A stretch of 64,000 nt of DNA, from NCBI RefSeq assembly GCF_000427405.1, contig NZ_KE386492.1:1-64000 (forward strand), read 5' to 3'. Below are positions 78 to 38,107 of this stretch, one piece after another. Under the pieces are notes generated by a model that was given only the letters and a program-made list of their open reading frames with translations, was not told where the DNA came from and did no database searches. This DNA comes from Flectobacillus major DSM 103. Its GTDB lineage: Bacteria > Bacteroidota > Bacteroidia > Cytophagales > Spirosomataceae. Position 1 is the first letter of the stretch; every line of letters begins with the position of its first letter. The position numbers were made by a program, and so were the translations under genes.

Positions 78-221
78 GGTATTTGCTCAGGCTTTCTGGT
101 TTTTCGCCTTTTCCTTCAATAATTTTATACTATTCTCACCGTCAGTCATATAATAGCTAAGTAGAAGTACATATATAAATCTAAAAAGGCAAACTTTTTT
201 GATTTCAACACAACCAAATAG

Positions 222-3200
222 ATGATTCATATAGCACCACAACTAAAAATCCTTGTTGTTGAAGATAACCTAGGAGATTATATTTTATTTGAAGAGTATT
301 TGCATGATACAGGATTAGATGTAAAGGATGTCCAAAATGTTATTTCTGTTGCTGAGGCTAAAAAAATATTAGCTCAACAGGATTTCGACTTGGTATTCCT
401 AGATTTGTCGTTGCCTGATAGCGTTGGAATTCAGTCATTAATTGACCTAAACCATATAATAGCTCATATCCCGATTGTGGTACTTTCGGGTATGGAAGAA
501 ACCCAAACCACCACACAAGCCATCATAAATGGTGCACAGGATTACTTGATTAAAGGTGAACTAGATGCCAAATTGCTATCAAAAACGATTCGTTATAGTA
601 TTGAACGTAAAAAAAATCTCGAAAAAATTAAGCAAAGTAACGAACGGTATACCCTTGTGTCGAATGCTACAATTGGGATGGTTTGGGACATCAACTTGAT
701 TACCCGCGAGGTTGTTCGTTCAGGCGATGCTTTTTTGCAACAACACGGCTACGACGAACACGAATTTACTAGCAATTTTGACTTTTGGGGGTTGCGTGTT
801 CACCCCGACGATTATTTGGAATTAAATCAGCGGATTAATCAGCATTTAGAAAAAGCCGAAACCAAATTCTGGGAAAGCGAATACCGCTTCCAAAATGGCA
901 ATGGTGAATATTTTTATGTACACGACCGTGGTTCAACTATCTTTGGTGCCGATGGTCAACCCGCTAGAATGATTGGTACTATGATGGATATTTCGGAACG
1001 CAAAACCTCAGAAGAGCTTTTACGTATTTCCGAACATAATTACCGACAAATTTTCTTCAACAACCCTAATCCCATGTGGATTTATGATGCCGAAACACTG
1101 GCTTTTTTAGAAGTCAATCCTGCGGCTATTAAACACTACGGATATACCCGTGAAGAATTTTTGTCTATTACCCTTTCAGACGTTCGGCCAGAAGAAGATG
1201 CTGCCATTTTTTTTACACAAGAGCTTATTACACAGCAAATTGCAGGTACAAAGGAGGTTTTTGTTGTGCATCAAAAGAAAAATCGAGAAAAAATTATTGT
1301 CGAAATAACAGCCTATCCGATTGATTTTGGCGGTAAGCAGGCTATGCAAACGCTTATCAATGATGTAACCGAAAAAGTTAGAAATCAAAAAGAAAAACAA
1401 GTGGTAGTGCAGGCAATTGAGTCGTTCAGAAATGCGTCGTCGCTAACCATTGGCCTCAACGAAAGCCTCAAATGTATTCGTGATTTTGCGGGCTGGGAAT
1501 ACGGCGAAATTTGGTTGTCTGATTATCACCAAGAACATATTCGCTTACAAACCTTTGATTCCTCTTCGTCGTTTCCCGAACTAACAGCAATGGCGATGAG
1601 TATTATTGAACAAAATATTCCATTCAAGGAATCAATTTACCAAATTGTTGAAAAACAAAAATTTGCCTTTTGGTCAAATAACGTTCAGATAGAACCATAT
1701 TTTATCCGAAAAGCTCAAGCCAAAAATCTTGATATTAAAGCCGCTGTATCTGTACCAATTATGTATAATGAAAAAATAATTGGATGGATTTTGCTATTTA
1801 GCCGACAAACGGGCAACCCTGATATAAAAATTATCAATTTTTTAGAAAGCGTCTGTAAGCAGCTTGGTTCTGAAATAGAAAAACGTAACGCCGACGAGCA
1901 GCTCAATCATTTCTTTATGCTCAGTAGCGATTTGCTGGGAATTGCCACTCTCGACGGCTATTTTGTAAGGGTCAATAACTCCTTTTCGAGGATTTTGGGC
2001 TACCAAGAAAACACCATTAATGGAAGCCTCCTGCTCGACTACGTGCATCCCGAAGACAAAGAAGAAACCCACAGAGTAGTTAAGGGACTTGCCGAAAAAC
2101 AGGCGGTTTCCTTTATGGAAAATAGGTTTATTGCCCAAAATGGTGATACCAAATGGGTTTCGTGGTCGGTTACATTCCTGCCCGACGAAAAGTTGGTATT
2201 TGCCTCGGGGCGTGATATTACCAAGCAAAAAGAAGAAGAACTTCAATTAAGATTACTAGAATCGGTAATTACCAACAGCAACGATGCCATTGTAATTACT
2301 GAGCCTATTTTGTCCAAACAGAACGGACAAAAAGTGGTTTATTTCAATAAATCCTTCTTGCAGCTAACAGGCTATAACGCAACCGAAATAATCGAAAACC
2401 CTACTCAACTACTCAGAGGTGCAAATACCAACATAGCCGAACTCGAAAAAATCAACGAGGCTATGGCTACTTGGACTCCCGCTGAAGCAGAAGTTATTAT
2501 TTATAAAAAAACAGGCGAAGAGTTTTGGACAAACCTATCGGTAATTCCAGTACCTGACAAAACGGGAGTGTTTACTCACTGGATTTCGATTTTTAGAGAT
2601 ATTACCGCCCGCAAAAAAGGGGAAGCAGAAAAAGAAATTCTTATTAAAGAACTTACCGATAGCAATACTGATTTAAAGCAGTTTACTTTTATTACGTCGC
2701 ACAACTTGCGAGCTCCGTTGTCTAATTTGTTGGGAATTTTGGATTTAATAGAGCCAAGTGTCATTCAAGACGAAATGACGTTATTCCTTATTGAAAAATT
2801 CAAAGAATCTACTTTACAACTCAACCAAACCGTAAACGACCTACTCAATGTACTTGTTATCAAAAACAAAGTAAATTTGGAACGAAAAACTTTACAGTTT
2901 GAAACAGAATTTGAAAAAGTAAAAACCTCTATTCAGTACCAAATCAACGAGGCCAGTGCGTTGTTGAAAACCGATTTTACGGCTATCAATACGGTTAGTT
3001 TTGACAGTACCTATTTGGAAAGTATCTTGCTCAATTTGCTGACCAATGCCATCAAATACCGTTCGCCTAAACGCTCGCTTGAACTCAATATTTTCACCAA
3101 AGATACCCCCGAATATATCGAATTGTATTTTATGGATAATGGTATTGGTATAGACCTAAAACGCCATCATAGCAAGATTTTTGGCTTGTACCAGCGATTC

Positions 3201-4090: not shown

Positions 4091-5293
4091 ATGCAAACCG
4101 AACTACTTGAAGCCGTAAAGCAATATTCTGAATCTATTTTAGAAAATTTGCCTGCTCAATTTTGCTATCATAATGCACAACATACGGCTCATGTTGTAGA
4201 ATCGACTCTTACGATTGCCCAAGAAGTGGGCGTAAAAGAAAAAACTTTAGAAAATCTGCTTATTGCGGCATGGATGCACGACATTGGCTATGCCGAAAGC
4301 ACCACCGACCACGAAACCCATAGTGCCAATATGGCGAGGGATTTTTTGACAAAGCTTAATTTCCCAGAAAAACGAATCGAGAAAGTTGTGGAATATATTG
4401 AGGCCACTCGTATGCCACAAACACCCCACAACGAAAAACAAATGATTATCTGCGATGCTGATTTGTCGCACATGGCCGCCGATAATTTTTTGAGTATTTC
4501 GGAAGAACTAAGAAAAGAAATTTCGCTGACCAAAATAGAATGTAGCGAACGTGAATGGCTAAAAAGTACCCTACAATTATTACAAAATCATCGGTATTTT
4601 ACTTCGTATGGCAAAAGGGTATTAGAACCTAAAAAGCAAATTAATCTTCATAAAATAGAAGACCGACTTGTTGAACTCAAGGAAATCAAGAAAGCCAAGA
4701 GAGAAGACAATTTAGCCAACTTAGATACTGTTCTTTTATCAAAAGAAAATAAGACCAAACGCCCCGACCGTGGTATCGAAACGATGTTTCGTACTACTTC
4801 GTCCAATCACTTTCAGCTATCGGCTATGGCCGACAACAAGGCTAATATCATGATTTCGGTGAATACCATTATTATTTCATTGATAATCAGTATATTGATT
4901 AGAAAATTGGAAGAGAATATTTATTTGGTTATTCCTACTATTATGATTACAGTAGTGTGCATGCTGGCTACTGTTTTTGCTGTACTAGCTACGATTCCTA
5001 ATGTTACTAAAGGTAAATTTTCAAAAGAAGACATTGCCAACCGAAGTGCCAATCTATTATTTTTTGGTAACTTCCATGAAATGGAACTAGAAGATTATCA
5101 GGCAGGAATGAAAGAAATGATGAACGATTCAGAATTTTTGTACTCGTCGATGACCCGTGACATATACTTTTTGGGCAAAGTACTGGGCAAGAAATACAAA
5201 ATGTTGCGTATTGCTTATAATATTTTCATGTATGGTTTTGTAATATCTGTGGTTGCTTTTGGTGTAGCGGCAGTACTTCAAAATATAAAATAA
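4091..5293 (+). CDS. HD phosphohydrolase fused to Pycsar-type transmembrane effector domain
   Basis: A 400-residue two-part protein. Residues about 20-180 form an HD-superfamily domain with H31, the doublet H63-D64 (WMHDIGY) and D124 (CDADLSH), the expected metal ligands of nucleotide or cyclic-nucleotide phosphohydrolases. After a charged linker (190-230), residues about 232-400 match the DUF5706/PycTM family of membrane effectors: the signature FQLSAMADNKANIMISVN, membrane segments at about 251-271 and 277-301, a conserved soluble stretch, and a third segment at 374-396. In Pycsar defence, PycTM responds to cCMP or cUMP made by a PycC cyclase. No cyclase gene is adjacent. The HD domain may degrade the signal or sense it; this is inference. 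The PAP2 gene starts 28 bp downstream, so the two are probably one operon. Confidence 0.85.
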   Translation: MQTELLEAVKQYSESILENLPAQFCYHNAQHTAHVVESTLTIAQEVGVKEKTLENLLIAAWMHDIGYAESTTDHETHSANMARDFLTKLNFPEKRIEKVVEYIEATRMPQTPHNEKQMIICDADLSHMAADNFLSISEELRKEISLTKIECSEREWLKSTLQLLQNHRYFTSYGKRVLEPKKQINLHKIEDRLVELKEIKKAKREDNLANLDTVLLSKENKTKRPDRGIETMFRTTSSNHFQLSAMADNKANIMISVNTIIISLIISILIRKLEENIYLVIPTIMITVVCMLATVFAVLATIPNVTKGKFSKEDIANRSANLLFFGNFHEMELEDYQAGMKEMMNDSEFLYSSMTRDIYFLGKVLGKKYKMLRIAYNIFMYGFVISVVAFGVAAVLQNIK

Positions 5294-5321
5294 TCCTGTT
5301 CATCACTATTGTATATCGTTT

Positions 5322-6056
5322 ATGTCAAAAAACACCATCATTTGCCTTTTAGTAATAGTAGGTTTTCTGTTGAGCAGTACTTGTCTTTTTTCGCAGGAAA
5401 GAGACTCTACCTATAGAAAACAAAAAACAAAAGAACTCATTGCCCCAGCCGTACTAATTGCTACAGGTATGGTGTTTATTAATAACAGCACCAAAGCCGA
5501 ACAAAAAGAATGGCATACCAAATATTTAAGTAGTTTTCGTACCAATGCCGACGATTACTTGCAGGTAACACCTCAGGCAGCTGTAATGGGTTTAGATATT
5601 ATTGGCGTTCATGGAAAACATTCGTTTGTAGATAAAGGTGGTATTATATTGCTCGGAAGTGCAATTATGCTTGGAACTGTTTTTGGACTTAAAAAGATTA
5701 CAAAAATTCAACGTCCCGACGACTCTACCAATGATTCTTTTCCGTCGGGGCATACTGCTAATGCCTTTTTTGGAGCAACCGTACTTGCCGAAGAGTATGG
5801 CGATAAAAGCGTTTGGTATACTATTGGAGGCTATACTGTAGCTACCACAACGGGTACTTTTAGAATGCTCAATAATCGCCATTGGCTTTCGGATGTGCTG
5901 ATTGGTGCGGGTATTGGTATTTTATCGGCCAAGGCTACCTACGTAGTATATCCTTGGATTAAGCAAAAACTCATGAAAAAAGTACCTACCAATGTAACCG
6001 TTATTCCTGTGTACGACGGCCGTACCGTTGGCGGAAGCCTTACTATTGGATTTTGA
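5322..6056 (+). CDS. PAP2-family phosphatase, exported
   Basis: A 244-residue membrane-associated acid phosphatase of the PAP2 superfamily. An N-terminal signal or anchor (about 5-24, ending near CLFSQ) precedes the catalytic domain. The three signature motifs are present: K-x6-RP (KKITKIQRP), PSGH (FPSGHTANAFFG) and R-x5-H-x3-D (RMLNNRHWLSD). Members dephosphorylate lipid phosphates such as phosphatidate, phosphatidylglycerol phosphate or undecaprenyl diphosphate in or outside the membrane; the substrate here cannot be told. It follows the HD/PycTM gene by 28 bp, so both probably act at the envelope from one transcript. Confidence 0.88.
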   Translation: MSKNTIICLLVIVGFLLSSTCLFSQERDSTYRKQKTKELIAPAVLIATGMVFINNSTKAEQKEWHTKYLSSFRTNADDYLQVTPQAAVMGLDIIGVHGKHSFVDKGGIILLGSAIMLGTVFGLKKITKIQRPDDSTNDSFPSGHTANAFFGATVLAEEYGDKSVWYTIGGYTVATTTGTFRMLNNRHWLSDVLIGAGIGILSAKATYVVYPWIKQKLMKKVPTNVTVIPVYDGRTVGGSLTIGF

Positions 6057-6477
6057 TAGATGCGTAAACGTATTAAATAACGAAAGTAAAGTAATTGATT
6101 GATAATTAGAGACTTATTTTAAGTTGGATTCATAAAATAGTTGAGAAACCCCTGAATCTCTATTCAATTATTAAGATAAAAGGATTTTTGAGGTTGTTTT
6201 AAAAATACGCTAGTTTCCTCGATTAGCTTTTTCCTATTAGCAGGCCAATAATTAGCTATTGCTAACAGAAACAATATGATTTTGGACAAAAAACAACCCA
6301 ACGTTAGGCAATCTATTTTGACAGCTTGGGTTGTTTCTTATCCAATATTATTCAGACTATTTTATTGAGTACCAATCACTATTTCGCCCTTAGTGTACTC
6401 AAAATGATACAACAGTAAGCTATTACCTTTAGCCTATGTATTGATTCAGCAGTATATCTTTTGCAAAACATACCATT
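6057..6477. other. Intergenic region with a weak hairpin
   Basis: 421 bp between the PAP2 gene and the phosphoesterase/barrel gene. It holds the hairpin noted at 6290-6336 and otherwise no recognisable gene. Confidence 0.5.
6290..6336 (+). terminator. Possible terminator after the PAP2 gene
   Basis: Arms AAACAACCCA (6291-6300) and TGGGTTGTTT (6327-6336) are exact complements with a 26-nt loop; the right arm is itself T-rich. The large loop makes this a moderate call. Confidence 0.45.
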
Positions 6478-9400
6478 ATGAAGCAAACTATACTTATCAT
6501 TTTTTCGATTTTTTTGCCTTTTACTTTTTTGGCACAAAGTAAAAAGGTACAACATACTATTTTTCTGATTGGCGATGCTGGCGAGCCTCTACTCAATGGT
6601 AGCGACGCTGTCCTCTCGACACTCCAGCAACGTATCAATCTTGCGGGGAAAAATAGTAGTGTTATTTTTTTAGGCGATAATATATACCCTATCGGAATGG
6701 TCTCGGAAGACCACCCCAATAGAAAACAAGCCGAAGCACGCTTTGCAGCACAACTTGATATTATCAAAAATTCTTCAGGACAAGGTTTTGTGATTCCTGG
6801 TAACCACGATTGGCAACAAGGTGGAAAAAATGGTTGGGAATATATCAAAAACCAAGAAAAATTTGTAACCGATTATCTTCAACGCAACGATGTTTTTTAT
6901 CCTAAAGGCGGATGTCCAACTCCTCAAGAGATTCATGTTTCCAACGATTTAACACTTGTTCTTTTAGATACCCAATGGTATTTGCACCCTTGGAAAAAAC
7001 CCGAAGACAATTCGGACTGTGAGGTAAAAAGTCTGGCAGGTATGCTAACCACTGTCGATGATATTATTTTCCGTAATCAAGACAAAAAAGTAATAGTGCT
7101 TGGGCATCATCCTATGTATTCGCATGGCTCGCATGGGGGGTATTTTACGGTAAAAGACCATCTGTTGCCTTTGCATGAATTAGGAATAAATATTCCGTTG
7201 CCCGTAATAGGTTCTATTTATCCACTATTTCGCTCAATGATTGGTAATATTCAGGATATTCCCAATCCCGTTTATAAAGAAATGAGCAATGGGTTAACCA
7301 GTATTTTCAAACAGTATTCCAATGTGATTTATGCCAATGGACACGAGCATAATTTACAGCTCATTGTACGAGACTCTATCAATTATATTACGTCTGGGTC
7401 GGGGTCAAAGCATACTCCTGTAAAAAAAGGAAAAGATTCTGAGTTTGCAGCCGAAACCAAAGGCTTTGCTCAGTTAGAATATTTAGAAGATGGTACACTT
7501 TTATTAAGTTTTATTTCAGGAAAAAATGAAGTCCTTTTCCAAAAAGAAATACATTTAAAAACTACTGCTTTTCAAGCTCCCAATTTACTTATCAACGACA
7601 AAAAAGCGAATATTCCTAATCCTCATTTTAAAGCTAATACCTTTAAAACATGGTTATTGGGTAGTAATTATCGAGATATTTGGACCAAGCCTATCGTAAC
7701 TCCTATTCTTGATTTTCAGCATGAAAAAGGAGGCTTAAAAATTATTCAGCGTGGTGGTGGGCAACAAACGCTGTCGCTCAGATACCAAGCCAAAGATGGA
7801 GGGCAATACGTGACTCGTTCGGTAGAGAAATACCCAGAAAGTGCTGTGCCAGAGTCTATTAGAAGCAAGTTTACGGTCGAAATTGTGGGTGACCAAATAT
7901 CGGCGTCTCACCCATTTGCGGCACTTACAGTACCTACTTTGGCCGATGCAGCAGGCGTATTGCATACCAATCCAAGACTTGTGACAATTCCGAACGATAC
8001 AACTTTGGGCAAATACCAACGACTTTTTGCAGGCCAATTGGCATTGTTTGAGGAAAGACCCGAAGAAGGTTTTGCAGGAGCAAAAAAGACCCTTTCGACA
8101 CTAAAATTATTTGATAAATTAGAAGAAGACAACAAAAATAAAGTAGACCAGAAAGCTACTTTACGGGCAAGGCTATTAGATATGTTTATTGGTGACTGGG
8201 ACAGACACGAAGACCAATGGCGTTGGGCTGCTTATGACAACGGCAAAAATACCCTTTATCAGCCTATTCCTCGTGACCGTGACCAAGCCTATTTTGTTAG
8301 CCAAGGGTTGCTTCCTCGTATTATATCACGCAAATGGATTTTACCTAAAATTCAAGGATTTGATTATCAGATTCGAGACATCAATACCTTCAACTACAAT
8401 GCTCGATACGTTGACCGAGCTTTTTTGACCGAACTTAGCGAACAGGATTGGCTCGATGAAGCAAAAGCTTTTCAACAAAATATGACAGAGGCAACCATAG
8501 ATTCGGCTATTGCCAAACTGCCTCAGAATGACCCACATGCAACCGAAATTATCAATAAGCTGAAGCAACGCAAAAAAGATATGGTTCAGTATGCTCAGGC
8601 TTATTATCAGTTTTTGGCCAAAGAGGTAGATATTGTGGCATCAGACAAAGACGAGTTTATTGAGGTTATTCGTCAGGAAGATGGCCAAACAGAAGTTTCT
8701 ATTTTTGACAAAAACAAAAAAGACGAAAAAGGGAAGCAAACGTATCATCGTATTTTTCAACCAACTATAACCAAAGAAATACGTATTTGGGGGCTCGATG
8801 GCGACGATAAATTTAGCGTAAAAGGACAGGCCGAAAAAGGAATTAGAGTACGACTTATTGGCGGAAAAGGGAAAGATGCTTTTGTTGATAGCTCAAAAGT
8901 AGCACGAGGAGCTAAAAAAACTTTGATTTACGACAAAACTAAAAATACACTGATTCAGGGAAGCGAAGAAACCGCCGATAAAACAAGTGATAGCGATAAG
9001 CGTATAAATGACCTAGACCGATTTGCTTTTGTGTATGACCGAATAGCTCCGCTTGGCTCGTTTGCTTATAACCCCGATGACGGTATTTTTATTGGTGGTG
9101 GTGTACAGTTAACCAAGCAAGGCTTTAGAAAAACCCCTTACAAAACACAACACAATTTATCGGGTAATTATGCTTTTTCTACCAAAGCTTTCAATCTATT
9201 CTATGTAGGAAATTTTGTTGACTTGATCGGAAAGGCCGACCTAGAACTGAAGATTACCTTACAGCAAGAAGGCATTACCGATAACTTTTTTGGCTTGAGC
9301 AACGAATCAGTTTACTTAAAAGAAAAGGGCATTCGGTATTACCGAACCAAGTTGAGTAATTACGAAAACTCGGCTATTCTTAAAAATCATTTTAATAAAC

Positions 9401-23696: not shown

Positions 23697-24605
23697 CTAA
23701 GCTACAAATTGTTCTTTGTACTGCATAGGAGTAACACCCACTACTTTTTTGAATAATCGGGTAAAATAAGAAGGACTTTCAAAACCTAATTGATAAGCTA
23801 TTTCCGAAATATTATCGCCTGTGCCTAATAGTTGATTTTTGGCTTCTGTAACAAGGTATAGATGTACATGATCCAAAGCTGCTTTGCCTGTTTCTTGTTT
23901 TAGCACATCGCTCAAGTAGCGGGTTGAAAGCGATAATTCGCCAGCTAAATAATTGACGGTTGGTAATCCTTTTGTTTTTTGAATACCTTTTTCAAAATAA
24001 TGCGTCAGTACTTCTTGAAATTTCTTTACGGTAGTTCCCGAAACGTTGTTACTGCGGTCGATAAATTGTCTTTTATAAAATCTATCTGAGTACTTCAACA
24101 TTGCATCAATGTGCGAAAGGATAATTTCCTGACTAAATTCATCCTGATTTTGGTCGTATTCAGTTCTGATTTTATCATAAAGCTCCCACATAATCTTTTC
24201 TTCGGCAGGCGAAATATGCAAGGCTTCATTGATTTCGTATTCAAAATAGCCATACTTTTTGATAAGACTGTGCAGGTTATGACCCGTTAAGTAATCTTCA
24301 TGCACAAAAATTACAAAGCCTTTTTCGGCAAATTGTACATTGCTCACTTCTATGATTTGCCTCGGTTTCATAAAAACCATTGAGCCATTCTCGTGGTCGT
24401 ACTTGGTTTTGCCATACAAAACGTAGCCTGATTTAATTTTTTTCAAGGCAATCATATAAAAATCCCCCGTAAATCTTGATTCGCCTAATGAATAACTCAT
24501 CAGTTCTTTACAAGTCATTAGACTAATTAAAGGATTGGCAGGAGGCGGATAACCACTTTTTTCGTGCAATTCTGAAACGCTTTTGTAATGGGTCAGTTTG
24601 TCCAT
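23697..24605 (-). CDS. AraC-family transcriptional regulator
   Basis: A 302-residue regulator with an N-terminal cupin-like sensing half and a C-terminal pair of helix-turn-helix motifs (ISEIAYQLGFESPSYFTRLFKKVVGVTPMQYKEQF). It is clearly paralogous to the AraC protein at 37211: blocks such as KKIKSG.LYG.T.YDH.NGSM.F.KPRQIIE and FE.GFESPSYFTRLFKK recur throughout. The two genes sit at either end of a region with other duplicated pieces. The likely target is the neighbouring redox genes, by position only. Confidence 0.88.
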   Translation of the reverse strand: MDKLTHYKSVSELHEKSGYPPPANPLISLMTCKELMSYSLGESRFTGDFYMIALKKIKSGYVLYGKTKYDHENGSMVFMKPRQIIEVSNVQFAEKGFVIFVHEDYLTGHNLHSLIKKYGYFEYEINEALHISPAEEKIMWELYDKIRTEYDQNQDEFSQEIILSHIDAMLKYSDRFYKRQFIDRSNNVSGTTVKKFQEVLTHYFEKGIQKTKGLPTVNYLAGELSLSTRYLSDVLKQETGKAALDHVHLYLVTEAKNQLLGTGDNISEIAYQLGFESPSYFTRLFKKVVGVTPMQYKEQFVA

Positions 24606-25850: not shown

Positions 25851-26750
25851 TTATGCTTTTTCAATAATTCCTTTACTGCTCAAAAACTTTTTACCTTCTT
25901 CTGTTTCAAAGATATTTTCCGCTTCGTCGTGGTCGGTAGAGTTACTTACGGCAAGCCATTTTTCAAACTCAGCTTTTCTGTTTTCATCAGCACTTCTTAA
26001 AATAGCCGTTGCCTCGCTTCCCAATACCAAATGCACAGGTGGTTCTGGATGTGATGCCAGTTCAAACATTACTTTGGCAGCTTTGGCTGGGTCTCCCACA
26101 GGTACATATTTCCCTGATAAAATGTATCCTTTCATACCACCAACAGTACTTTCATAACCCTCTATATCTTCGGCAAAGCTCATGGATGCGCCTGCCCAGT
26201 CGGTACGAAAACCACCCGGTTCAATAGACGTTACTTTGATGCCCAGAGGTGCTACTTCTTTGCTTAGTGCTTCGGTAAAACCAGCCAAACCAAATTTAGC
26301 GGCTTGATACATGGTTAGCCCTGGGTTGCCAACACGCCCACCAATAGAACTAATTTGAAGGATGCGTCCAGAGCGTTGTTTACGCATAATAGGTAAAACA
26401 ACACGAGTGATTTCGATAGGAGCGTATAAGTTTACTTCTAACTGACTACGAACTTGTTCATCAGTGAATGCCTCGGCTGCACCCGTGATACCAAATCCTG
26501 CATTATTGACCAATACGTCAATTTTACCAAAATGATTTACTGCTTCTGCAACGGCAGTGTCAATCTGGGTCTTGTTGCTTACATCCAGCGGAAGAGCCAA
26601 TACTTGATTCGGGAATTGCACTACCAAATCATTTAGTTGTGAAACATTTCTTGCGGTGGCAACTACGTTATCACCGTTTGTTAGTGCTTCTAAAGCAAGG
26701 CTTTTGCCTAAACCTTTTGAGCTACCTGTAATAAACCAAACCTTTGTCAT
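25851..26750 (-). CDS. Short-chain dehydrogenase/reductase (SDR)
   Basis: A 299-residue classical SDR. The start is the ATG at 26750 (MTKVWFITGSSKGLGKS), which places the cofactor motif at the normal position. Visible motifs: TGSSKGLG for NAD(P) binding, NNAGFG, the catalytic Ser in ISSIGG and YQAAK. The arginine in TARNVS suggests NADP preference. Substrate unknown. It is divergent from the SDR at 26995 across a 244-bp gap, a gap that recurs almost unchanged in front of the SDR at 34473. Confidence 0.9.
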   Translation of the reverse strand: MTKVWFITGSSKGLGKSLALEALTNGDNVVATARNVSQLNDLVVQFPNQVLALPLDVSNKTQIDTAVAEAVNHFGKIDVLVNNAGFGITGAAEAFTDEQVRSQLEVNLYAPIEITRVVLPIMRKQRSGRILQISSIGGRVGNPGLTMYQAAKFGLAGFTEALSKEVAPLGIKVTSIEPGGFRTDWAGASMSFAEDIEGYESTVGGMKGYILSGKYVPVGDPAKAAKVMFELASHPEPPVHLVLGSEATAILRSADENRKAEFEKWLAVSNSTDHDEAENIFETEEGKKFLSSKGIIEKA

Positions 26751-27100
26751 TTTTCTTGAATTTTGTTTCTGCAAAGTTCTCTCGAAAGTCTCGGGACTTC
26801 TTTGTTAGAAAGCTCAATGTAGCTTTGTTGAAAAGCTCAGATATCAGTTTTTTTTGTAGCACAAATCAACGGTTCTACCACAAACTTCCCTCTTTCGTAT
26901 TTCTGTGCTATTCTTCCGCTGAAATGGGTTAGTCGTTCGGCAAGGGGCTGAAGTAACTTTGTCATATCAAAATAAACAAAAAATAAACGACATCATGAGC
27001 AAGACAATTTTCATTACAGGAGCATCAAGAGGATTTGGAAAACTTTGGACAGAAGCATTTTTGAAACGTGGCGACAAAGTAGCTGCAACTTCACGCAATA
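26730..27100. repeat. Duplicated SDR control region, copy A
   Basis: This stretch, covering the first codons of the minus-strand SDR, the 244-bp gap and about the first 35 codons of the plus-strand SDR, is nearly identical to 34208-34578 with no net length change: the two ATGs are 245 bp apart in both copies. Downstream of here the two genes diverge strongly. The boundaries were set by eye. Confidence 0.85.
26954..26961 (+). promoter_or_regulatory. -7 element of the plus-strand SDR promoter
   Basis: TAACTTTG fits the TAnnTTTG consensus and lies 33 bp before the ATG at 26995. The same octamer is kept at 34432-34439 in the duplicated copy. A clear -33 TTG is not seen. Confidence 0.45.
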
Positions 27101-28718: not shown

Positions 28719-29264
28719 ATGAAAAAACTATTTATTACAGCGGCCTTAGCATTAGGCCTATTCACAACAAACCAATCTTCAGCTCAGTCTACAGCTACCA
28801 GTACATTTAACGTTGTCTTAGAAGATGTAATGTCATTGAGAATCAATGGTAGTACTACAACCAATGTTACTTATAATGACATAGATGCTTATGTAAGAGG
28901 TAAAGATGGTACACTTACTGATTATCTGACAGTAATAAGTACAAAGGCTTACAAAGTAACCGTTAAATTAGGAACTGTTTCGACTAATCCGTCAGAACTA
29001 GAAGAGCACTTAATAGTTTTAGCTGCTATTCCAAGTAATAATTCTAGAGGTAGAACAGATAACGTGACAGATAGGTCAGGTACATCTATTGATGGTACAG
29101 AAAGAAATTTTATCTTGGCTAGTGGAAGTACCTTCAGTAGCATGGAACAAAGTGCAGAAGCACTATTCGATATTGATTATCACCTTTATGGAGGTAGTAA
29201 GGTGTTTGATAAAACAGCAGGTACGAATATTATTCCTGTTGTATTTACGATTGCAGCACCTTAA
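28719..29264 (+). CDS. Small secreted pilin-like subunit
   Basis: A 181-residue exported protein with a signal peptide (about 1-22, ending SSAQS). The mature part is rich in Thr, Ser and Val and is predicted beta-rich. The pattern TYNDIDAY...LTVISTKAYKVTVKLGT resembles the C-terminal half of the third gene of the cluster (MVFNTVNDY...LKVLASAPYQVIVKTST), suggesting related Ig-like subunit folds. The C-terminus (IPVVFTIAAP) alternates hydrophobic residues, as in subunits whose last strand is held by a PapD-type chaperone. I infer a major fimbrial subunit; no family could be named with certainty. Confidence 0.65.
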   Translation: MKKLFITAALALGLFTTNQSSAQSTATSTFNVVLEDVMSLRINGSTTTNVTYNDIDAYVRGKDGTLTDYLTVISTKAYKVTVKLGTVSTNPSELEEHLIVLAAIPSNNSRGRTDNVTDRSGTSIDGTERNFILASGSTFSSMEQSAEALFDIDYHLYGGSKVFDKTAGTNIIPVVFTIAAP

Positions 29265-29314
29265 TTCATTATCGCTATAAATTTTAAATACTCTTTATAC
29301 AAGTAATCAATCAG

Positions 29315-29350
29315 CAGTACTCAGTAGAAAGTTATTTCTATTGAGTACTG
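29315..29350 (+). terminator. Hairpin between pilin-like and chaperone genes, possible attenuator
   Basis: CAGTACTCAGTAGAAA (29315-29330) pairs with TTTCTATTGAGTACTG (29335-29350), with one G-T wobble and a 4-nt loop. A short T-rich stretch follows. A partial terminator after the first gene would let the subunit be made in excess over its chaperone and outer-membrane protein, as in classical pilus operons; this is inferred. Confidence 0.6.
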
Positions 29351-29402
29351 TTGATATTTTAGGGGTAATCTTATTATAAAGTATTGTTGAGATTACCTTG
29401 TT

Positions 29403-30230
29403 ATGACAGTTTCTATGAAAATCAGAAAATACATTTTTACAGTTGTTGTAATTCTGCTGTTATCCAATATCCCGCTTTTTGCCCAAGATGGTATCATGGT
29501 TGGCCCTAGCAGAATATACTATAAAGTTGGGGTTGGGGGCACAGGTACGCAAAAAGTAACGGTAACTAATCCAAGTGATAAAGCCATGGATGTTGGTATT
29601 GCTATCAACGATTGGGCTTATAATGCTAATGGTGATAATCTTAGCTTTAATCCGGGTACACAACCAACTACTTGTGCAGATTGGATTCAGATTTTGCCAG
29701 GGGCTTTTTTTACTTTACAAGCAAAAGAAAAAAAAGAAGTCAGCATTATGCTCAATGTGCCAAAAAATGTCAATAATGATATTCCTGTTCATACGGCGAT
29801 GCTGTATTTTACCCAATTGACCCCTGTCGATAGCAAAACTCCTAGTGGTACAATGATGAAAGTAAGTATGCGTATAGGCATAAAATTGTATCATTCATTT
29901 AGTCAACAAGAAGAACGAGACATTGATATTACCGATTTTAAGGATGTGGCAGACAGCACCAAAGCCAGTGCTGGTCGTTTGGAATTAGCTTTTCAAAATA
30001 AAAGTAAAGTTTGGGTGGAAGGTAAAGTAAATTGGGAGTTACTGAATACACAAACAGGCGAAAAACAAAAGCTTGAAGATTTAAACTTTTATTCGTTGCC
30101 AGGCGACAACCGTATCTTAAAACAACCCTTACCCGCAAAACTAGCCAAAGGGAAATATATGGCTACAGCCATCGTCAACTACGGGAATAAAGATGAATTG
30201 AAAATAGCCGAACTTGAATTTGTAAGATAG
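29403..30230 (+). CDS. PapD-like periplasmic fimbrial chaperone
   Basis: A 275-residue exported protein with a signal peptide (about 1-28, ending PLFAQ). Two Ig-like domains follow. The N-terminal domain matches the PapD family: GPSRIYYKVGVGGTGTQKVTVTNPS corresponds to the first strands, with R37 at the place of PapD Arg8, and MRIGIKLYH places K161 at the position of PapD Lys112. These two residues hold the subunit's C-terminal carboxylate in known chaperones. A second in-frame ATG four codons later (29415) is an equally possible start. It lies between the subunit and adhesin-like genes, 22 bp before the latter, and probably folds both. Confidence 0.8.
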   Translation: MTVSMKIRKYIFTVVVILLLSNIPLFAQDGIMVGPSRIYYKVGVGGTGTQKVTVTNPSDKAMDVGIAINDWAYNANGDNLSFNPGTQPTTCADWIQILPGAFFTLQAKEKKEVSIMLNVPKNVNNDIPVHTAMLYFTQLTPVDSKTPSGTMMKVSMRIGIKLYHSFSQQEERDIDITDFKDVADSTKASAGRLELAFQNKSKVWVEGKVNWELLNTQTGEKQKLEDLNFYSLPGDNRILKQPLPAKLAKGKYMATAIVNYGNKDELKIAELEFVR

Positions 30231-30252
30231 CGAGCGGTAAAACCAGTAACCA

Positions 30253-31269
30253 ATGTATAGATTATTGTATTGCACCTTGCTCGTGATATTGCTTTGTGCG
30301 AAGGGATTGTTCTGTTATAGTCAAACTGTAAATAACTGTGATGGTATTACCATTTCTGGGAATACCGGTGCTATTTATAGTTTTAGTGACTACGAAAGCC
30401 AAATGACAGGTGCAACGATTACAGATGCCCTAGCTGTACAATATAATCCTAATTCAAGCACTTGTAGTGGTTGGAGTCTGCGAGTACGAGCTACAGATAA
30501 TTTTACTAATGGAGCTAATTTTGTGGCACCTCAGTATATTTCGTTGCGTTTCAATCGGGTGAGTCAGGGTTCGCCAACTGCCTCAGAAATAGGCGTTAGC
30601 AATACCGATTATTCGCTAAATACAAGCGACGTAACACTCATCGGTAATTCAAACGCAGCTTTCAGCGATTATACAGAACATAAATTTGATATGGTTATTC
30701 AAGGTGGAAACCATTTACTCGTTCCTAGTGGCACTTATACCAGTAGCCTTATTTTTACGCTGTATAACCAAAATAATCAGGCCGTCTCAACAGTCACAAT
30801 ACCAGTTGCATTTCAGGTTCAAATCACAACAAATAATAGCTTTACGATGTTATTGCAAAATGGTGCAGAAATGGTCAATATGGTATTCAATACTGTAAAT
30901 GATTATAGTTCAGAGAAATCGGTCAATATTGCCAACGGTTTGAAAGTGCTGGCTTCTGCCCCCTATCAGGTGATTGTAAAAACCAGTACGGATGTTCTTA
31001 CCTCTAGTACATCTTCGGCTACAATTCCTGTTAATACGATAAGTATAGAAGCGACTCAAAGTACAGCCACAAGTGCAGGTATTTCGGTTTATACTAGGCA
31101 GTTATCTGTCAACGAACAAGTACTTATCAATACAACAAACCCTTTAGATTCCAGTCAGCAAATGGTTGAATATAACCTGCGATATGCTATATCAGCCAAT
31201 ACAACTACCCTTATGCAACCCAGCGGAAGGTACAGTGTAAATATTATTTTTGTAGTTCTGCCTCAATAA
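30253..31269 (+). CDS. Secreted two-domain adhesin-like fimbrial protein
   Basis: A 338-residue exported protein with a signal peptide (about 1-24, ending LFCYSQ). The N-terminal domain (about 25-190) has two Cys (NNCDG and SSTCSGW) and no recognised family. The C-terminal domain (about 195-338) resembles the small pilin-like protein of the first gene and ends RYSVNIIFVVLPQ, a hydrophobic-alternating strand like a pilin donor strand. A receptor-binding domain followed by a pilin domain is the layout of tip adhesins such as FimH; that role is inferred. It is tightly coupled to the barrel gene 4 bp downstream. Confidence 0.6.
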   Translation: MYRLLYCTLLVILLCAKGLFCYSQTVNNCDGITISGNTGAIYSFSDYESQMTGATITDALAVQYNPNSSTCSGWSLRVRATDNFTNGANFVAPQYISLRFNRVSQGSPTASEIGVSNTDYSLNTSDVTLIGNSNAAFSDYTEHKFDMVIQGGNHLLVPSGTYTSSLIFTLYNQNNQAVSTVTIPVAFQVQITTNNSFTMLLQNGAEMVNMVFNTVNDYSSEKSVNIANGLKVLASAPYQVIVKTSTDVLTSSTSSATIPVNTISIEATQSTATSAGISVYTRQLSVNEQVLINTTNPLDSSQQMVEYNLRYAISANTTTLMQPSGRYSVNIIFVVLPQ

Positions 31270-31273
31270 TAAA

Positions 31274-34039
31274 ATGAGTAAATATATCAAGATACTAGCA
31301 TTACTCATTTTGGGATGTTCTGTTGCTCATGCTCAGCAAGGAAAATTGTTTGGACTAACCACAGCCAATACAAAAATACTTGCCAACAATGAAGAACGGA
31401 TTGTAATACTATTAAAACTGAGTAACTATTCAGAAGGTACTTTGAACGGACGCATTGCTATTACTGCCGATGCTGGATTGACGCTTATTTCTAAAAATGA
31501 TATGCGTGTCAATGTTGCAAAACATGATAGTAGCTTTATTTCTGTCTCTTTTTTTGTAACCAAGAAAGCCAAAGCAGGTGTAGCAAATGCCATCAAATTT
31601 GTACTGTATGATGAACACAAAAATATACTTGCTGAAGCAGTTTCTGAAGTCAGTATTTCGCCCAAACGCAATGTAAACCTATATACGGTAGTCTCCAGTA
31701 TTTTGCTAGATAACCCTCGTGATACCATTATCATTCCCGTACAGGTTTTCAACTCGGGCAATACCGTACAAACCATTACTTTGGTATGTGCTTATCCGCT
31801 AAGTGTTGATGAGCAAGGCTTTCATCAAAACACAAAGCTGACCCTGCAACCATCAGCCGATACTACTTTTGTTTTTTCAAAGCTTATCACCAAACGTATG
31901 CTCAATATTGAAGGCTTTGATATTAATATTACGGGTGTCTATTCAAATGGCGATGTATTGGGCGGGGCTCAGATACAAGTACAAAATGCCAGAAGTAACA
32001 GAAATTATCGTGATGAATTAAGTAGCAGTGCCTTTGTAGACAATACTTTACAGGTAGGCTCACAAAATTTATTCAATAACAATCAGTCATATTTAGTAAG
32101 AGGTCATGGTGGTTTTGAACTGGGAAAAGACCGCCTGAATTATAGTTTAAACCTTACCAGTTGGCAAAATAGTACTTCTCCAATCTTGATTCAAAACACT
32201 TGGCTAGAGTACATCAATAAGCAAAGAGGAATAAAAGTTGGCAATATTTTTCGTTCACTCGACCTTAATTTAACGGGTCGGGGCATAACAGGTTTCCTGA
32301 GTACTTCCAAAACGGATACTTGGGAGGTTGGATTTATCGATAAAGAAAATAACTTATTGGGTCGTCAAAACAATCAAATAAATATCGAAAGTAGTCGAGC
32401 TGCTTGGATTGCCTACAAGCATCAAGACAAGCAATGGCGAATCAATCATTTTTTTGTATTAGATTATGACCGAATACAGGGCGTTCAGAATCAGCTTTTG
32501 GGAAATGAAATGCAGTACACCAACAGTAGAAAAGTGGTTTATACCTTTGGCCTCAATGGTGGACGAGTATCGTCTTTGCTCAACAATGAAATAGAGAAGT
32601 ATGGAGTGTCGGTGAGTGCAAAAGTAAATGGAACTTTTGGAAAAGTAAACCTTAGTAGCTCTAATTACATGAGTACAGGCTACTACCCTGGTCAGCAAAG
32701 AGGAGCTTTGAATATGACTGAACGAGTGAGCTGGTCATTACCCAAAGCAAATATCTGGTGGCTTTTTAATTATCGGAACTTTGCTCCAAAACAAGTTTCG
32801 CCAGACCAATTTGTGTTTGCCACAAGGAATTTAAGAGCAGAGTGGGGAGTATCCTTAAAAAGTAAAAAAGTAGCCATTTCGGTTGCACCTGTGTTTACCC
32901 ACGAAAAGGGTAATCCATTGTACTCTTTGACTGGTGAAGCGAGGCAACAATTGCTCAACGCATGGAATGCCCTGTTTAATTTTTCACTTCCTTCTGCGAA
33001 AGACGAAAGTTTTTTCATGAATTCGGAGATGGGAGCATATTCATTCAGTAACGACTCCACCACAAATCTACATTTACGAACAAATCTATATTATAGAAAA
33101 GGGCTTTTAAATTTGAATGGTTCTGTCCAGTTGGGTGCTTTTTACTTGAGTGAAATCCCCAATAGTGTTATGGGTTCAAACAGTCAGAGCAATATTTTCA
33201 ATTTTGCTTCTTTTATTCAGAAAAATTGGTTTTCCCAAAAACTAAAAACAAATACAGGAGTATCGTTTACCTATCATTCTAACTTTGGGTTCAGCCAATT
33301 TTTGACAGAAAGAATGGAATATGTGGCTGGCGATAAGACAAGTATTTATACCAACCTCAATTGGAATCAATATAACAATCGCCAAAGAAGTATCATAGAG
33401 CTTGGGCTTATTCATCATTTTCCCATAATTAAAGCCAATGTTAAAAGTAACCTGCTAGAAGTATTTGTCTATAAAGACCTAAATCAAGATGGAATCTATA
33501 GCAAAACAGATTCTATCGCCAGAGGTTTTATGGTGAATATTGAGAAAAAAATATTTACTACTGACAAATCAGGAAAGGTAAGCTATAAAAATTTACCAGA
33601 CGGTACAATGGCTATTTCTGTACCTTTTCAGCAAGGATGGCACGCTCCCGAACAAAATATTATTCTTCAGAAAAAAACAAAAATAGCCATTCCTTTGCAG
33701 ATAACAGGCACACTGAAAGGGCAGCTTAGTTATAGCCGTAGTCAGTTTAGTTACGAAACAGAAATAGATTTGTTTGGTATTGTTATGTTGGCAGTAGATA
33801 AAACGGGGAAGATATTTCGTACCCGAACAACCTCTGACGGTCGCTATACGTTTTATATGCCTGTGGGCGAATACAAAATTAGTATTGATACATCAATGTT
33901 GCCGTCTGAACTTGAAGTGCCAGAGAATGCGAAAGAAGTAAAAATTATTGATGGAAAAATTATGACAACCGATTTTATTATAAAAGTAAAGCAAAGGAAG
34001 GTAGAAGTGAAGAAGTTTACATCGCCTTCTAATAAATAG
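31274..34039 (+). CDS. Large outer-membrane protein, proposed non-canonical usher
   Basis: A 921-residue exported protein with a signal peptide (about 1-20, ending SVAHAQ). Residues about 20-240 form Ig-like domains with repeated amphipathic strands (VILLKLSNYSEGTLNGRIAI). Residues about 255-700 look like a beta barrel, with many alternating aromatic strands. The C-terminus contains a prealbumin/SdrD-B-like domain (LEVFVYKDLNQDGIYSKTDSIARGFMVNIEK) and a last Ig-like domain (about 800-900). Size, order of parts and genetic context match a fimbrial usher, which exports and polymerises subunits. I see no recognisable FimD signature, so it is either a very diverged usher or an unrelated barrel with the same job. 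Confidence 0.6.
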   Translation: MSKYIKILALLILGCSVAHAQQGKLFGLTTANTKILANNEERIVILLKLSNYSEGTLNGRIAITADAGLTLISKNDMRVNVAKHDSSFISVSFFVTKKAKAGVANAIKFVLYDEHKNILAEAVSEVSISPKRNVNLYTVVSSILLDNPRDTIIIPVQVFNSGNTVQTITLVCAYPLSVDEQGFHQNTKLTLQPSADTTFVFSKLITKRMLNIEGFDINITGVYSNGDVLGGAQIQVQNARSNRNYRDELSSSAFVDNTLQVGSQNLFNNNQSYLVRGHGGFELGKDRLNYSLNLTSWQNSTSPILIQNTWLEYINKQRGIKVGNIFRSLDLNLTGRGITGFLSTSKTDTWEVGFIDKENNLLGRQNNQINIESSRAAWIAYKHQDKQWRINHFFVLDYDRIQGVQNQLLGNEMQYTNSRKVVYTFGLNGGRVSSLLNNEIEKYGVSVSAKVNGTFGKVNLSSSNYMSTGYYPGQQRGALNMTERVSWSLPKANIWWLFNYRNFAPKQVSPDQFVFATRNLRAEWGVSLKSKKVAISVAPVFTHEKGNPLYSLTGEARQQLLNAWNALFNFSLPSAKDESFFMNSEMGAYSFSNDSTTNLHLRTNLYYRKGLLNLNGSVQLGAFYLSEIPNSVMGSNSQSNIFNFASFIQKNWFSQKLKTNTGVSFTYHSNFGFSQFLTERMEYVAGDKTSIYTNLNWNQYNNRQRSIIELGLIHHFPIIKANVKSNLLEVFVYKDLNQDGIYSKTDSIARGFMVNIEKKIFTTDKSGKVSYKNLPDGTMAISVPFQQGWHAPEQNIILQKKTKIAIPLQITGTLKGQLSYSRSQFSYETEIDLFGIVMLAVDKTGKIFRTRTTSDGRYTFYMPVGEYKISIDTSMLPSELEVPENAKEVKIIDGKIMTTDFIIKVKQRKVEVKKFTSPSNK

Positions 34040-34107
34040 TTGAAGTACCGTTGCTTATATAGAATAGTAAAAGTTGATGTTTTATTCTATATGATTAATA
34101 CCTTTTT

Positions 34108-34139
34108 GAACCTGTATCAACTATTGTTGATACAGGTTC
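34108..34139 (+). terminator. Terminator of the fimbrial-type cluster
   Basis: GAACCTGTATCAAC (34108-34121) and GTTGATACAGGTTC (34126-34139) are exact complements with a 4-nt loop, placed 68 bp after the last stop. The following TTATAT is only partly T-rich, but stem and position fit. Confidence 0.65.
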
Positions 34140-34207
34140 TTATATAAAAAAGGTTACTATACGTATTAATCCAGAAAAGTCTATCATAATTTAAAGCAAG
34201 GATTTTT

Positions 34208-34578
34208 GATAAACCCAACTTTTGTCATTTTTCTTAAATTTTGTTTCTGCAAAATTCTCCCGAAGGTCACGGGACTTCTTTGTTAGAAAGCTCAATGTAG
34301 GTTTGTTGAAAAGCTGAGGCAGCAGTTTTTTTTGTAGCACAAATCAACGATTCTACCACAAATCTCCCTCTTTCGTATTTCTGTGCTATTCTTCCGCTGA
34401 AATGGGTTAGTCGTTCGCCAAGGGGGCTGATTAACTTTGTCATATCAAAATAAACAAAAAACGAACGACATCATGAGCAAGACAATTTTTATCACAGGGG
34501 CATCAAGAGGATTTGGAAAACTTTGGGCAGAAGCATTTTTGAAACGTGGCGATAAAGTAGCCGCAACAGCCCGCAACA
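34208..34578. repeat. Duplicated SDR control region, copy B
   Basis: Near-identical to 26730-27100. It includes a 21-bp remnant (34208-34228, minus strand) of the first seven codons of the other SDR, reading MTKVGFI instead of MTKVWFI and then losing all similarity. That remnant shows the segment was copied from a locus that had both divergent SDRs. Confidence 0.8.
34432..34439 (+). promoter_or_regulatory. -7 element of the second plus-strand SDR promoter
   Basis: TAACTTTG, identical in sequence and distance (33 bp before the ATG) to the element at 26954. Its conservation within the duplicated segment supports a working promoter. Confidence 0.45.
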
Positions 34579-35297: not shown

Positions 35298-35340
35298 TCT
35301 ATTTATCATCCTAATAAATAATTCCATGTAGTGGCAACCC

Positions 35341-35463
35341 TTGCGGTTGCCAGATAAATCAAACGCGATACTTCCTTCTTGGCTTTGATTTTACCTTGCG
35401 GTTGCCAGATAAATCAAACGGAATACTTCCTTCTTGGCTTTGATTTTGCCATGCGGTTGCCAC
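35341..35463. repeat. 55-bp tandem repeat, two full copies plus a partial
   Basis: Units 35341-35395 and 35396-35450 differ at only four positions; a 13-bp third start follows (35451-35463). Each unit begins with TGCGGTTGCCAG, and an upstream GGCAACC makes a short inverted repeat with the first GGTTGCC. It lies in the gap before the gene at 35529 and may be a mobile or structural intergenic repeat. Confidence 0.8.
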
Positions 35464-37210: not shown

Positions 37211-38107
37211 ATGAAACATTACAAAACCCTTAGCGAATTGCATCGTAGCAATGGCTGGGCAATGCCCGAACACCCGCTTTTCAGTGTAGTTGGTTGCCAG
37301 TCGAATTGTCCATTGGGCGACCGAGAGTTTACAAGTGATTGTTATATGATTGGTTTTAAAAAGATAAAATCGGGTGTAATACTGTATGGTCGTACTCCTT
37401 ACGACCATACCAATGGCTCAATGATATTTGTAAAACCACGACAAATAATCGAAATGAAAAACCTGCAATTTGAAGAAAAAGGGTTTATGTTATTGGTTCA
37501 TGAGGATTATTTGAATGGACATGAATTGCATCAAAGTATTGAGAAATACGGTTATTTCGACTATGAAACAAACGAAGCTTTGCATCTTTCGCCCAAAGAA
37601 GAAGCGATTATGTGGGAACTTCACGACAAAATAAAAGGCGAATATCTCAATAATACCGACGAGTACAGTCGTGAGATTATTTTGAGTCATGTAGCGTCGG
37701 TACTCATGTATGCTCAACGGTATTACAAGAGGCAGTTTATCAATAGAGCAGAGGTAACGGGCAAAACTGCCACGAAGTTTACAGATTTATTAAAAACATA
37801 TTTCAAAAGTGGAGAATTGCAAGAAAATGGGCTACCATCCGTCAACAAACTGGCGGAGCAACTGTATCTTTCTCCACGCTATTTAAGTGATTTACTGAAA
37901 CAAGAAACGGGCAAAACCGCCATGGAGTTAATTCATATTTCGCTTATTTCAGAAGCTAAAAATCTTTTACAAGTTGCAGAGCAAGGCGTTGCCGAAATAG
38001 CTTATGAATTGGGTTTTGAAAGTCCATCTTATTTTACCAGATTATTCAAAAAGCAGACAGGAATGACGCCTGTTGAATTTAGGAAAATGAGTTTTAATCT
38101 CAATTAA
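37211..38107 (+). CDS. AraC-family transcriptional regulator
   Basis: A 298-residue regulator, paralogous over its whole length to the one at 23697 (shared KKIKSG, YDHTNGSMIFVKPRQIIE, YYKRQFI, LSPRYLSDLLKQETGKTA, ELGFESPSYFTRLFKKQTGMTP). It has an N-terminal cupin-like sensing domain and a C-terminal double helix-turn-helix. It follows the alpha/beta-hydrolase by 53 bp and ends 5 bp from the converging HxlR gene. It probably controls the redox genes upstream. Confidence 0.9.
   Translation: MKHYKTLSELHRSNGWAMPEHPLFSVVGCQSNCPLGDREFTSDCYMIGFKKIKSGVILYGRTPYDHTNGSMIFVKPRQIIEMKNLQFEEKGFMLLVHEDYLNGHELHQSIEKYGYFDYETNEALHLSPKEEAIMWELHDKIKGEYLNNTDEYSREIILSHVASVLMYAQRYYKRQFINRAEVTGKTATKFTDLLKTYFKSGELQENGLPSVNKLAEQLYLSPRYLSDLLKQETGKTAMELIHISLISEAKNLLQVAEQGVAEIAYELGFESPSYFTRLFKKQTGMTPVEFRKMSFNLN

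Follow-up and report, generated by a model that had tools for sequence, protein, structure and literature searches.

A probable chaperone-usher-type gene cluster in Flectobacillus major with a candidate divergent usher and profile similarity to WxLIP and WxL proteins

The first 64,000 nucleotides of contig NZ_KE386492.1 of Flectobacillus major DSM 103 (the window) contain a compact four-gene locus on the forward strand, positions 28719 to 34039, that we interpret, with a probability of roughly 0.72, as machinery of the chaperone-usher type for subunit export and assembly, its usher being very divergent. Along the strand lie a subunit gene, a hairpin, the gene of a periplasmic chaperone, the gene of a two-domain subunit, the gene of a large barrel-like protein and a second hairpin. 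The first subunit, of the major-subunit type (181 amino acids, 28719..29264), is a member of the subunit family aligned here (alignment A5) and has a signal peptide ending in SSAQ. The chaperone gene (29415..30230) encodes 271 amino acids; an alternative start at 29403 would give 275, and relatives favor the start at 29415, which is the one used in the closest of them (89% identical). The two-domain subunit, or “adhesin” (338 amino acids, 30253..31269), follows after 22 bp, and 4 bp further on begins the gene of a large predicted outer-membrane barrel protein, the candidate usher (921 amino acids, 31274..34039). All four open reading frames and both short gaps are where a first-pass annotation of this DNA had placed them. 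A Pfam scan of the four proteins returned nothing over the cut-offs, and none was matched by an NCBIfam family model.

The gene set is conserved. In all 27 loci from family-level relatives, the chaperone occurs together with two or more subunit-like genes. A protein matching the barrel profile is also encoded in 25 of these loci; in the other two (L056 and L057), the chaperone has an 899-amino acid neighbor that falls, at scores above 150 bits, into a group with more remote barrel proteins. The first-pass annotation had read the four genes as the component set of a chaperone-usher pathway and had proposed gene order in other genomes as a check, and the genes do lie together in these relatives. 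Subunit paralogues number up to six per locus (L051, L052, L054, and L055). Barrel homologues are present in 26 of the 121 family-level genomes, the genome under study included, in a family that includes Fibrella, Fibrivirga, Spirosoma, and Larkinella; within the genus, one of the four other genomes has one among the matches listed. Across 392 genomes of the phylum, at least 500 of the 919 positions of the barrel profile were matched in 13 (a looser tally of 94 also counts cases in which only the C-terminal domains are matched), and the chaperone was found in 84. The search for the barrel in viral contigs gave four stretches that matched a pattern, none of them a relative.

The association of the chaperone with a large protein was further assessed in 33 loci, hand-picked rather than drawn at random from the chaperone matches in the phylum. 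An open reading frame of at least 780 codons lies on the same strand within 400 bp of 26 of the 32 chaperone genes, as compared with 4 of 42 control genes of 230–330 amino acids from the same loci (Fisher P = 2.4e-10), and neighbors of 140–260 amino acids number 3.25 per chaperone and 1.31 per control. The chaperone was not recovered by the gene finder in three of the 33 loci (L135, L138, and L139).

Profile-profile comparisons (hhalign; results given as percentages, E-values referring to one pairwise comparison) relate the chaperone to two families. The profile of the chaperone family (alignment A2, 23 of 28 sequences) matches ten FimC-type chaperones at 96.4% over 214 columns, with one reversed and three column-shuffled controls at 0.4% at most, and seven WxLIP proteins of lactic acid bacteria at 98.3% over 225 columns, with reversed and shuffled controls again at 0.4% at most. 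By these profiles the chaperone is kin to both FimC and WxLIP; comparison of the FimC profile with that of WxLIP gives no match (1.4%). A search of the PDB with the chaperone profile retrieved EfmWxLIP1 in an almost full-length alignment (E = 8.8e-10), and PapD-family chains are absent among the 14 sequences listed. In Pfam, WxLIP_PGBD scores 20.1 bits against the window chaperone (cut-off 27.3) and is found in 14 of the 23 family chaperones at E up to 1; PapD_N matches the window chaperone at E = 0.035, below its cut-off, and three of the 23 at E up to 1.

Arg33 (codon at 29511-29513) and Lys157 of the window chaperone align with R44 and K148 of the FimC precursor, which we take to be Arg8 and Lys112 of the mature protein. 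Lys157 ends a segment of alternating hydrophobic residues (148–157; 29856..29885 on the forward strand) that is the candidate donor strand, G1; this segment ranks third for alternation among 252 windows of the protein, and the two that rank above it overlap the same segment. Over the 23 aligned chaperones, the frequency of large hydrophobic residues in the segment before the Lys112 position is 0.89 at odd offsets and 0.22 at even ones.

The 921-amino acid protein appears remotely related to ushers through intermediates. In other Bacteroidota families, genes of this chaperone family adjoin genes of large proteins, 27 of which were aligned (C27); the chaperones beside them belong to the same family as the window chaperone (99.6%). 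The joint profile of C27 matches ten FimD-type ushers, a set that includes one archaic usher (L093, so assigned by its spore coat U neighbors), at 98.2% over 547 columns, with controls at 0.9% (reversed), 0.1% (TonB receptors), and 0.2% (LptD). A FimD-family HMM finds 15 of the 27 at E below 0.01 and none of 41 other proteins, and in a Pfam scan of eight C27 proteins, one passes the cut-off of the Usher family. An independent search of the 392 phylum genomes for Usher (PF00577) gave matches with E no higher than 0.01 in eight genomes, of which one is over the cut-off, and in seven of the eight the match lies 0.8–1.8 kb from a chaperone match. The barrel family of the window (47 sequences) in turn matches C27 at 98.9% over 608 columns, residues 253–916 running collinearly on 199–876 (reversed control, 3.6%). 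The match persists at 94.5% when C27 is trimmed before its C-terminal domains, and alignments restricted to the barrel keep the register of the full-length one.

Three regions can be distinguished in the 921-amino acid protein. The N-terminal region (approximately residues 22–240; 31337..31993) consists of predicted chaperone-like Ig domains and matches the chaperone profile at 95.0%. The predicted barrel (approximately residues 243–718; 32000..33427), delimited by collinearity and by a count of amphipathic segments, has 21 such segments versus 22 in the FimD set at the loosest threshold of 2.0 and 12 versus 16 at 3.0, strand counting of this kind being crude. The C-terminal region (approximately residues 722–921; 33437..34036) contains transthyretin-like domains identified by Pfam and by profile comparison: SdrD_B at 731–794 and CarboxypepD_reg at 837–872 both fall just under their curated cut-offs, and the C-terminal part of the family matches that of the usher set with C27 at 98.5%. 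The profiles were cut into N-terminal, barrel, and C-terminal parts at assumed FimD domain borders.

The figures above rest on the following samples. Alignment A1, that of the barrel, was made from 25 of the 26 matches to the profile, L054 having been dropped as a near-copy of L055, and the subunit alignment (A5) holds 44 of 85. L082, which comes from a draft genome and has a broken reading frame, was excluded from alignment A6 and from the family sets. C19 consists of 14 of 19 members, five being the same records as others, and C10 of nine of ten. The window barrel family set held 35 sequences and later 47. A single-linkage grouping of 66 proteins from the barrel slot (phmmer, E = 1e-6) was not used as evidence, because shared C-terminal domains can produce such links.

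Several observations weigh against the chaperone-usher interpretation. Compared directly with the ten FimD-type ushers, the window barrel family reaches only 0.4–8.2% (0.4, 5.7, 7.5, and 8.2%), and Usher (PF00577) was found in none of the 25 barrel family members at E up to 0.05, nor in the genome itself at E up to 10; a PDB search with the barrel profile likewise returned no usher chain. Comparisons of barrel with barrel alone give just 6–38%, so much of the signal between the window family and C27 is C-terminal, and that strong C-terminal part is a type of domain found in many unrelated proteins; when the family grew from 35 to 47 sequences, the barrel-only value for C27 fell from 38% to 28%. 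The usher N-terminal domain, PapC_N, is absent, and the N-terminal region compares with its usher counterpart at 0.2%. Six of the 32 chaperones in the adjacency test have no neighboring large open reading frame; in L140, L141, L142, and L149, all from small genomes of family f18, chaperone homologues have no large open reading frame within 5 kb, which may mean that the chaperone is put to a different use there or that the system is split. The Arg8/Lys112 pair, which the first-pass annotation had recognized as R37 and K161 at the PapD positions, is present in the window chaperone under that numbering if translation starts at 29403, but it is not a feature of the family: the Arg8 column is Lys or Arg in 13 of the 23 chaperones and the Lys112 column Lys in 3 and His in 18, and for the 27 chaperones adjoining C27 the residues listed in these two columns include no Arg and no Lys. 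The subunit profile matches twelve FimA-type pilins at 35.5%, a weak value that covers the C-terminal 63 columns. Finally, the mature N-terminal extension has a median length of 35 residues in major subunits (measurable in 12 of 18) and 36 in tip subunits (11 of 13), which leaves the expectation of a longer extension in major subunits without support.

These results could be accommodated by a barrel that is not homologous to ushers, that is, an unrelated barrel with transthyretin-like domains that the same chaperone family recruited and that fulfills the function of an usher by convergence. Such an origin would agree with the null result of the direct FimD comparison, with barrel-only values that do not improve with more sequences, with an N-terminal region unlike that of ushers, and with the promiscuity of the C-terminal domains (SdrD_B in 20 of the 25 family members, CarboxypepD_reg in 19). 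However, the alignment to C27 is collinear through the whole barrel and keeps its register when the barrel is taken alone, and C27 is itself FimD-like and served by the same chaperone family; we consider convergence unlikely, at about one chance in four. Given the low barrel-only values and their drop on enlargement, homology of the barrel is likely rather than proved. The first-pass annotation had called the usher unrecognized and had assigned to this protein the usher's job. The former remains apt for direct searches, yet through the C27 intermediates the protein emerges as a probable, very divergent usher; the latter gains from the gene context and from the remote collinear similarity to chaperone-linked, FimD-like proteins, although the barrel by itself is not significant. 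A chaperone-usher-type system with a very divergent usher is the simplest interpretation, and operation in that manner is likely. The annotation had also named a TonB-dependent receptor or another known non-usher family as the alternative identity; no such family was matched. The TonB receptor reading was rejected: no TonB receptor family of Pfam matches the 25 members, comparisons with four E. coli receptors give 0.1–2.2%, and HasR (E = 0.87–1.3) is the sole TonB receptor in the PDB search.

Both domains of the “adhesin” resemble subunits. Its N-terminal half (residues 25–170) matches a profile of 13 single-domain subunits, encoded directly downstream of the chaperone in relatives, at E = 1.2e-13 and its C-terminal half (approximately 199–335) a profile of 18 upstream subunits at E = 1.1e-17; the earlier description of the second half as pilin-like was correct but applies to the first half as well. 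The 181-amino acid subunit matches the upstream-subunit profile at E = 1.6e-51, a profile that contains this subunit or its like. At 87.9%, the family profile (A5) matches a WxL set made up of seven small proteins and two large ones, and K-12-type pilins do not match the WxL profile (0.6%). Pfam WxL (PF13731) was found in none of the 44 subunits at E up to 1, and the genome itself contains no WxL match. In the PDB, the subunit profile aligns through the N-terminal half (residues 26–98 of 169) with the chains TLP-1 and TLP-2 of entries 9ikj and 9ikk (E = 3.6e-8), each of which contains 16 copies. These entries are probably filaments, possibly of a related system; literature searches for the TLP chains gave nothing relevant, and a single subunit used as the query did not retrieve them.

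The subunits bear on whether a fiber is formed at all. Display of single or paired adhesins on the surface, in the manner of a WxL platform and with no polymerization, would be in keeping with a chaperone and subunits that are by profile nearest to WxLIP and WxL proteins, for which a surface platform has been proposed (PMC10599100), and with the negative outcome of the extension test. Up to six subunit paralogues per locus argue against it, as does the match to TLP-1 and TLP-2, with the reservation just given on the single-subunit query; display without a fiber strikes us as improbable, to much the same degree as convergence of the barrel. Far less probable still is an assignment of the locus, as an unexceptional member, to one of the classes already known, either the classical or archaic chaperone-usher pathway or the type V pili of Bacteroidota. 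The gene composition and the weak PapD_N matches would fit such an assignment, but no Usher match was obtained, the archaic usher in the FimD set gave no direct match either, and no NCBIfam model was matched. Type V pili have a lipobox in their subunits; none was seen by eye in the subunits of this family, and the type V reading was rejected.

On the chaperone-usher interpretation, the subunits, whose signal peptides are seen, would enter the periplasm through Sec. The chaperone, predicted to consist of two Ig-like domains with no membrane anchor, would hold each subunit through a donated strand, supplied by the stretch of alternating hydrophobic residues that precedes Lys157. The 921-amino acid protein, with chaperone-like N-terminal domains in place of PapC_N, would receive the chaperone-subunit complexes, and the subunits would leave through its large predicted barrel. 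There they may polymerize into a fiber, with the two-domain subunit probably at the tip, and the product may serve in surface adhesion. As in the FimC/FimD/FimA pathway and its archaic forms, the gene set combines subunits, a chaperone, and a barrel, the chaperone profile is FimC-like with an alternating pattern before the anchor residue, and relatives in the barrel slot match FimD; the locus differs in having no direct usher signature, in its N-terminal domains, in the unconserved anchor pair, and in subunits distant from FimA.

The class is not confined to Bacteroidota, although the first-pass annotation had suggested a separate Bacteroidota class of fimbriae; that it is distinct and conserved is borne out. 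A tblastn search with family chaperones led to Deinococcus plasmids, five of which encode a chaperone homologue (E = 1.7e-36 against the A2 profile; no match to FimC, 2.0%) and a large protein of 839–1090 amino acids in the same order as here. In four of the plasmids the chaperone gene is flanked on both sides by a small open reading frame; D. deserti has one only. Order and small neighbors are like those in the window, in genes mostly annotated “hypothetical protein.” The five large proteins match the C7 subgroup at 98.7–99.3% over their full length (99.3% over 771 columns), but only their N- and C-terminal ends align with the window's own subgroup (95.6% and 84.5%), and the small open reading frames are weakly related to the subunits (62.6%) or unrelated (0.9%) and do not match WxL (0.1–0.4%). 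The D. deserti chaperone homologue (L189, 5965-6735) is annotated as a FimB/Mfa2 family fimbrial subunit, which is probably a misannotation.

WxL/WxLIP clusters resemble the locus in combining one chaperone-like protein with small and larger subunits, and by profile the chaperone and subunits of the window appear nearer to these Gram-positive proteins than to PapD and FimA. The two differ in the envelope components. A C-terminal hydrophobic helix is present in all eight monoderm chaperones (seven from lactic acid bacteria and one from Arthrobacter) and a C-terminal membrane helix in none of 55 diderm ones (the 23 of the window family, the five of Deinococcus, and the 27 adjoining C27). In the monoderm WxL loci, no outer-membrane barrel gene was seen, and the annotations of the large open reading frames name WxL, MucBP, or surface proteins; conversely, no window-family subunit matches Pfam WxL. 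The system of the window is plausibly the diderm counterpart of WxL clusters. The Arthrobacter chaperone homologue (a DUF916 protein encoded on plasmid pYA7-1a, L190) lies between two small proteins that match a WxL profile (E = 8e-7 and 3e-7), and the 12.7-kb stretch of plasmid contains no large barrel-like gene; in this monoderm actinobacterium the three genes (5229-7534) constitute a WxL-like cluster outside Bacillota.

Among noncoding features of the locus, a 21-bp hairpin between the subunit and chaperone genes (29310..29355, forward strand; z = −7.45) is a possible partial terminator. A strong hairpin occurs at the same place in the loci of two relatives, L031 (z = −4.25) and L032 (z = −6.80), making three loci in total; terminator-like sites in the region, this hairpin among them, number 4 versus 3.3 in shuffled sequences, which is no excess. 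A 14-bp hairpin 3′ of the last gene (34108..34139, forward strand; z = −8.34 for 34040-34150), outside the list of terminator-like sites, is a possible terminator. The locus is flanked by a 300-nucleotide direct repeat (window positions 26731-27030 and 34209-34508, 91% identical, 7478 apart), the copies of which span the starts of two genes for paralogous short-chain dehydrogenases. If these copies recombined, the four genes would be lost, which could explain the patchy presence of the system within the genus. Two similar AraC-type regulators, recognized by eye, bracket the region (23697-24605, reverse strand; 37211-38107, forward strand) and, together with the pair of dehydrogenases, suggest a duplicated neighborhood. 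Two tandem copies of a 55-nucleotide repeat (35339-35448, 95%) lie at the start of an open reading frame at 35379.

The resemblance of the chaperone to a Gram-positive protein hints at a shared origin of two adhesion systems that have been studied separately. Diderm chaperone-usher and monoderm WxL/WxLIP systems may be variants of a single ancient system of subunits and a strand-donating chaperone, with the window locus and its Deinococcus and Bacteroidota relatives as a diderm intermediate, a proposal to which we give somewhat less than an even chance. It draws on the profile similarity of both components, on the same gene composition, and on the exchange of a helix for a barrel; the lack of direct similarity between FimC and WxLIP, the missing Pfam WxL matches, and Deinococcus small open reading frames that show little similarity or none count against it. 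In the open-access articles searched, no Bacteroidota system of this kind is described among the matches listed, and none of those listed joins WxL with ushers, the three that mention both using, by word count, one of the terms in passing.

If the chaperone-usher interpretation is correct, Bacteroidota and Deinococcus would gain a chaperone-usher-like pathway whose usher is missed by ordinary family searches; the scale of the miss would be indicated by Usher matches in 8 of the 392 phylum genomes (one over the cut-off) versus the chaperone in 84. Two systems of surface adhesion would be connected, and the origin of the usher would become testable through intermediates. A chaperone of this family would be predicted to come with one of two features, a membrane helix or a barrel as its partner, and, should the common origin hold, WxL proteins may themselves exchange donor strands and polymerize.

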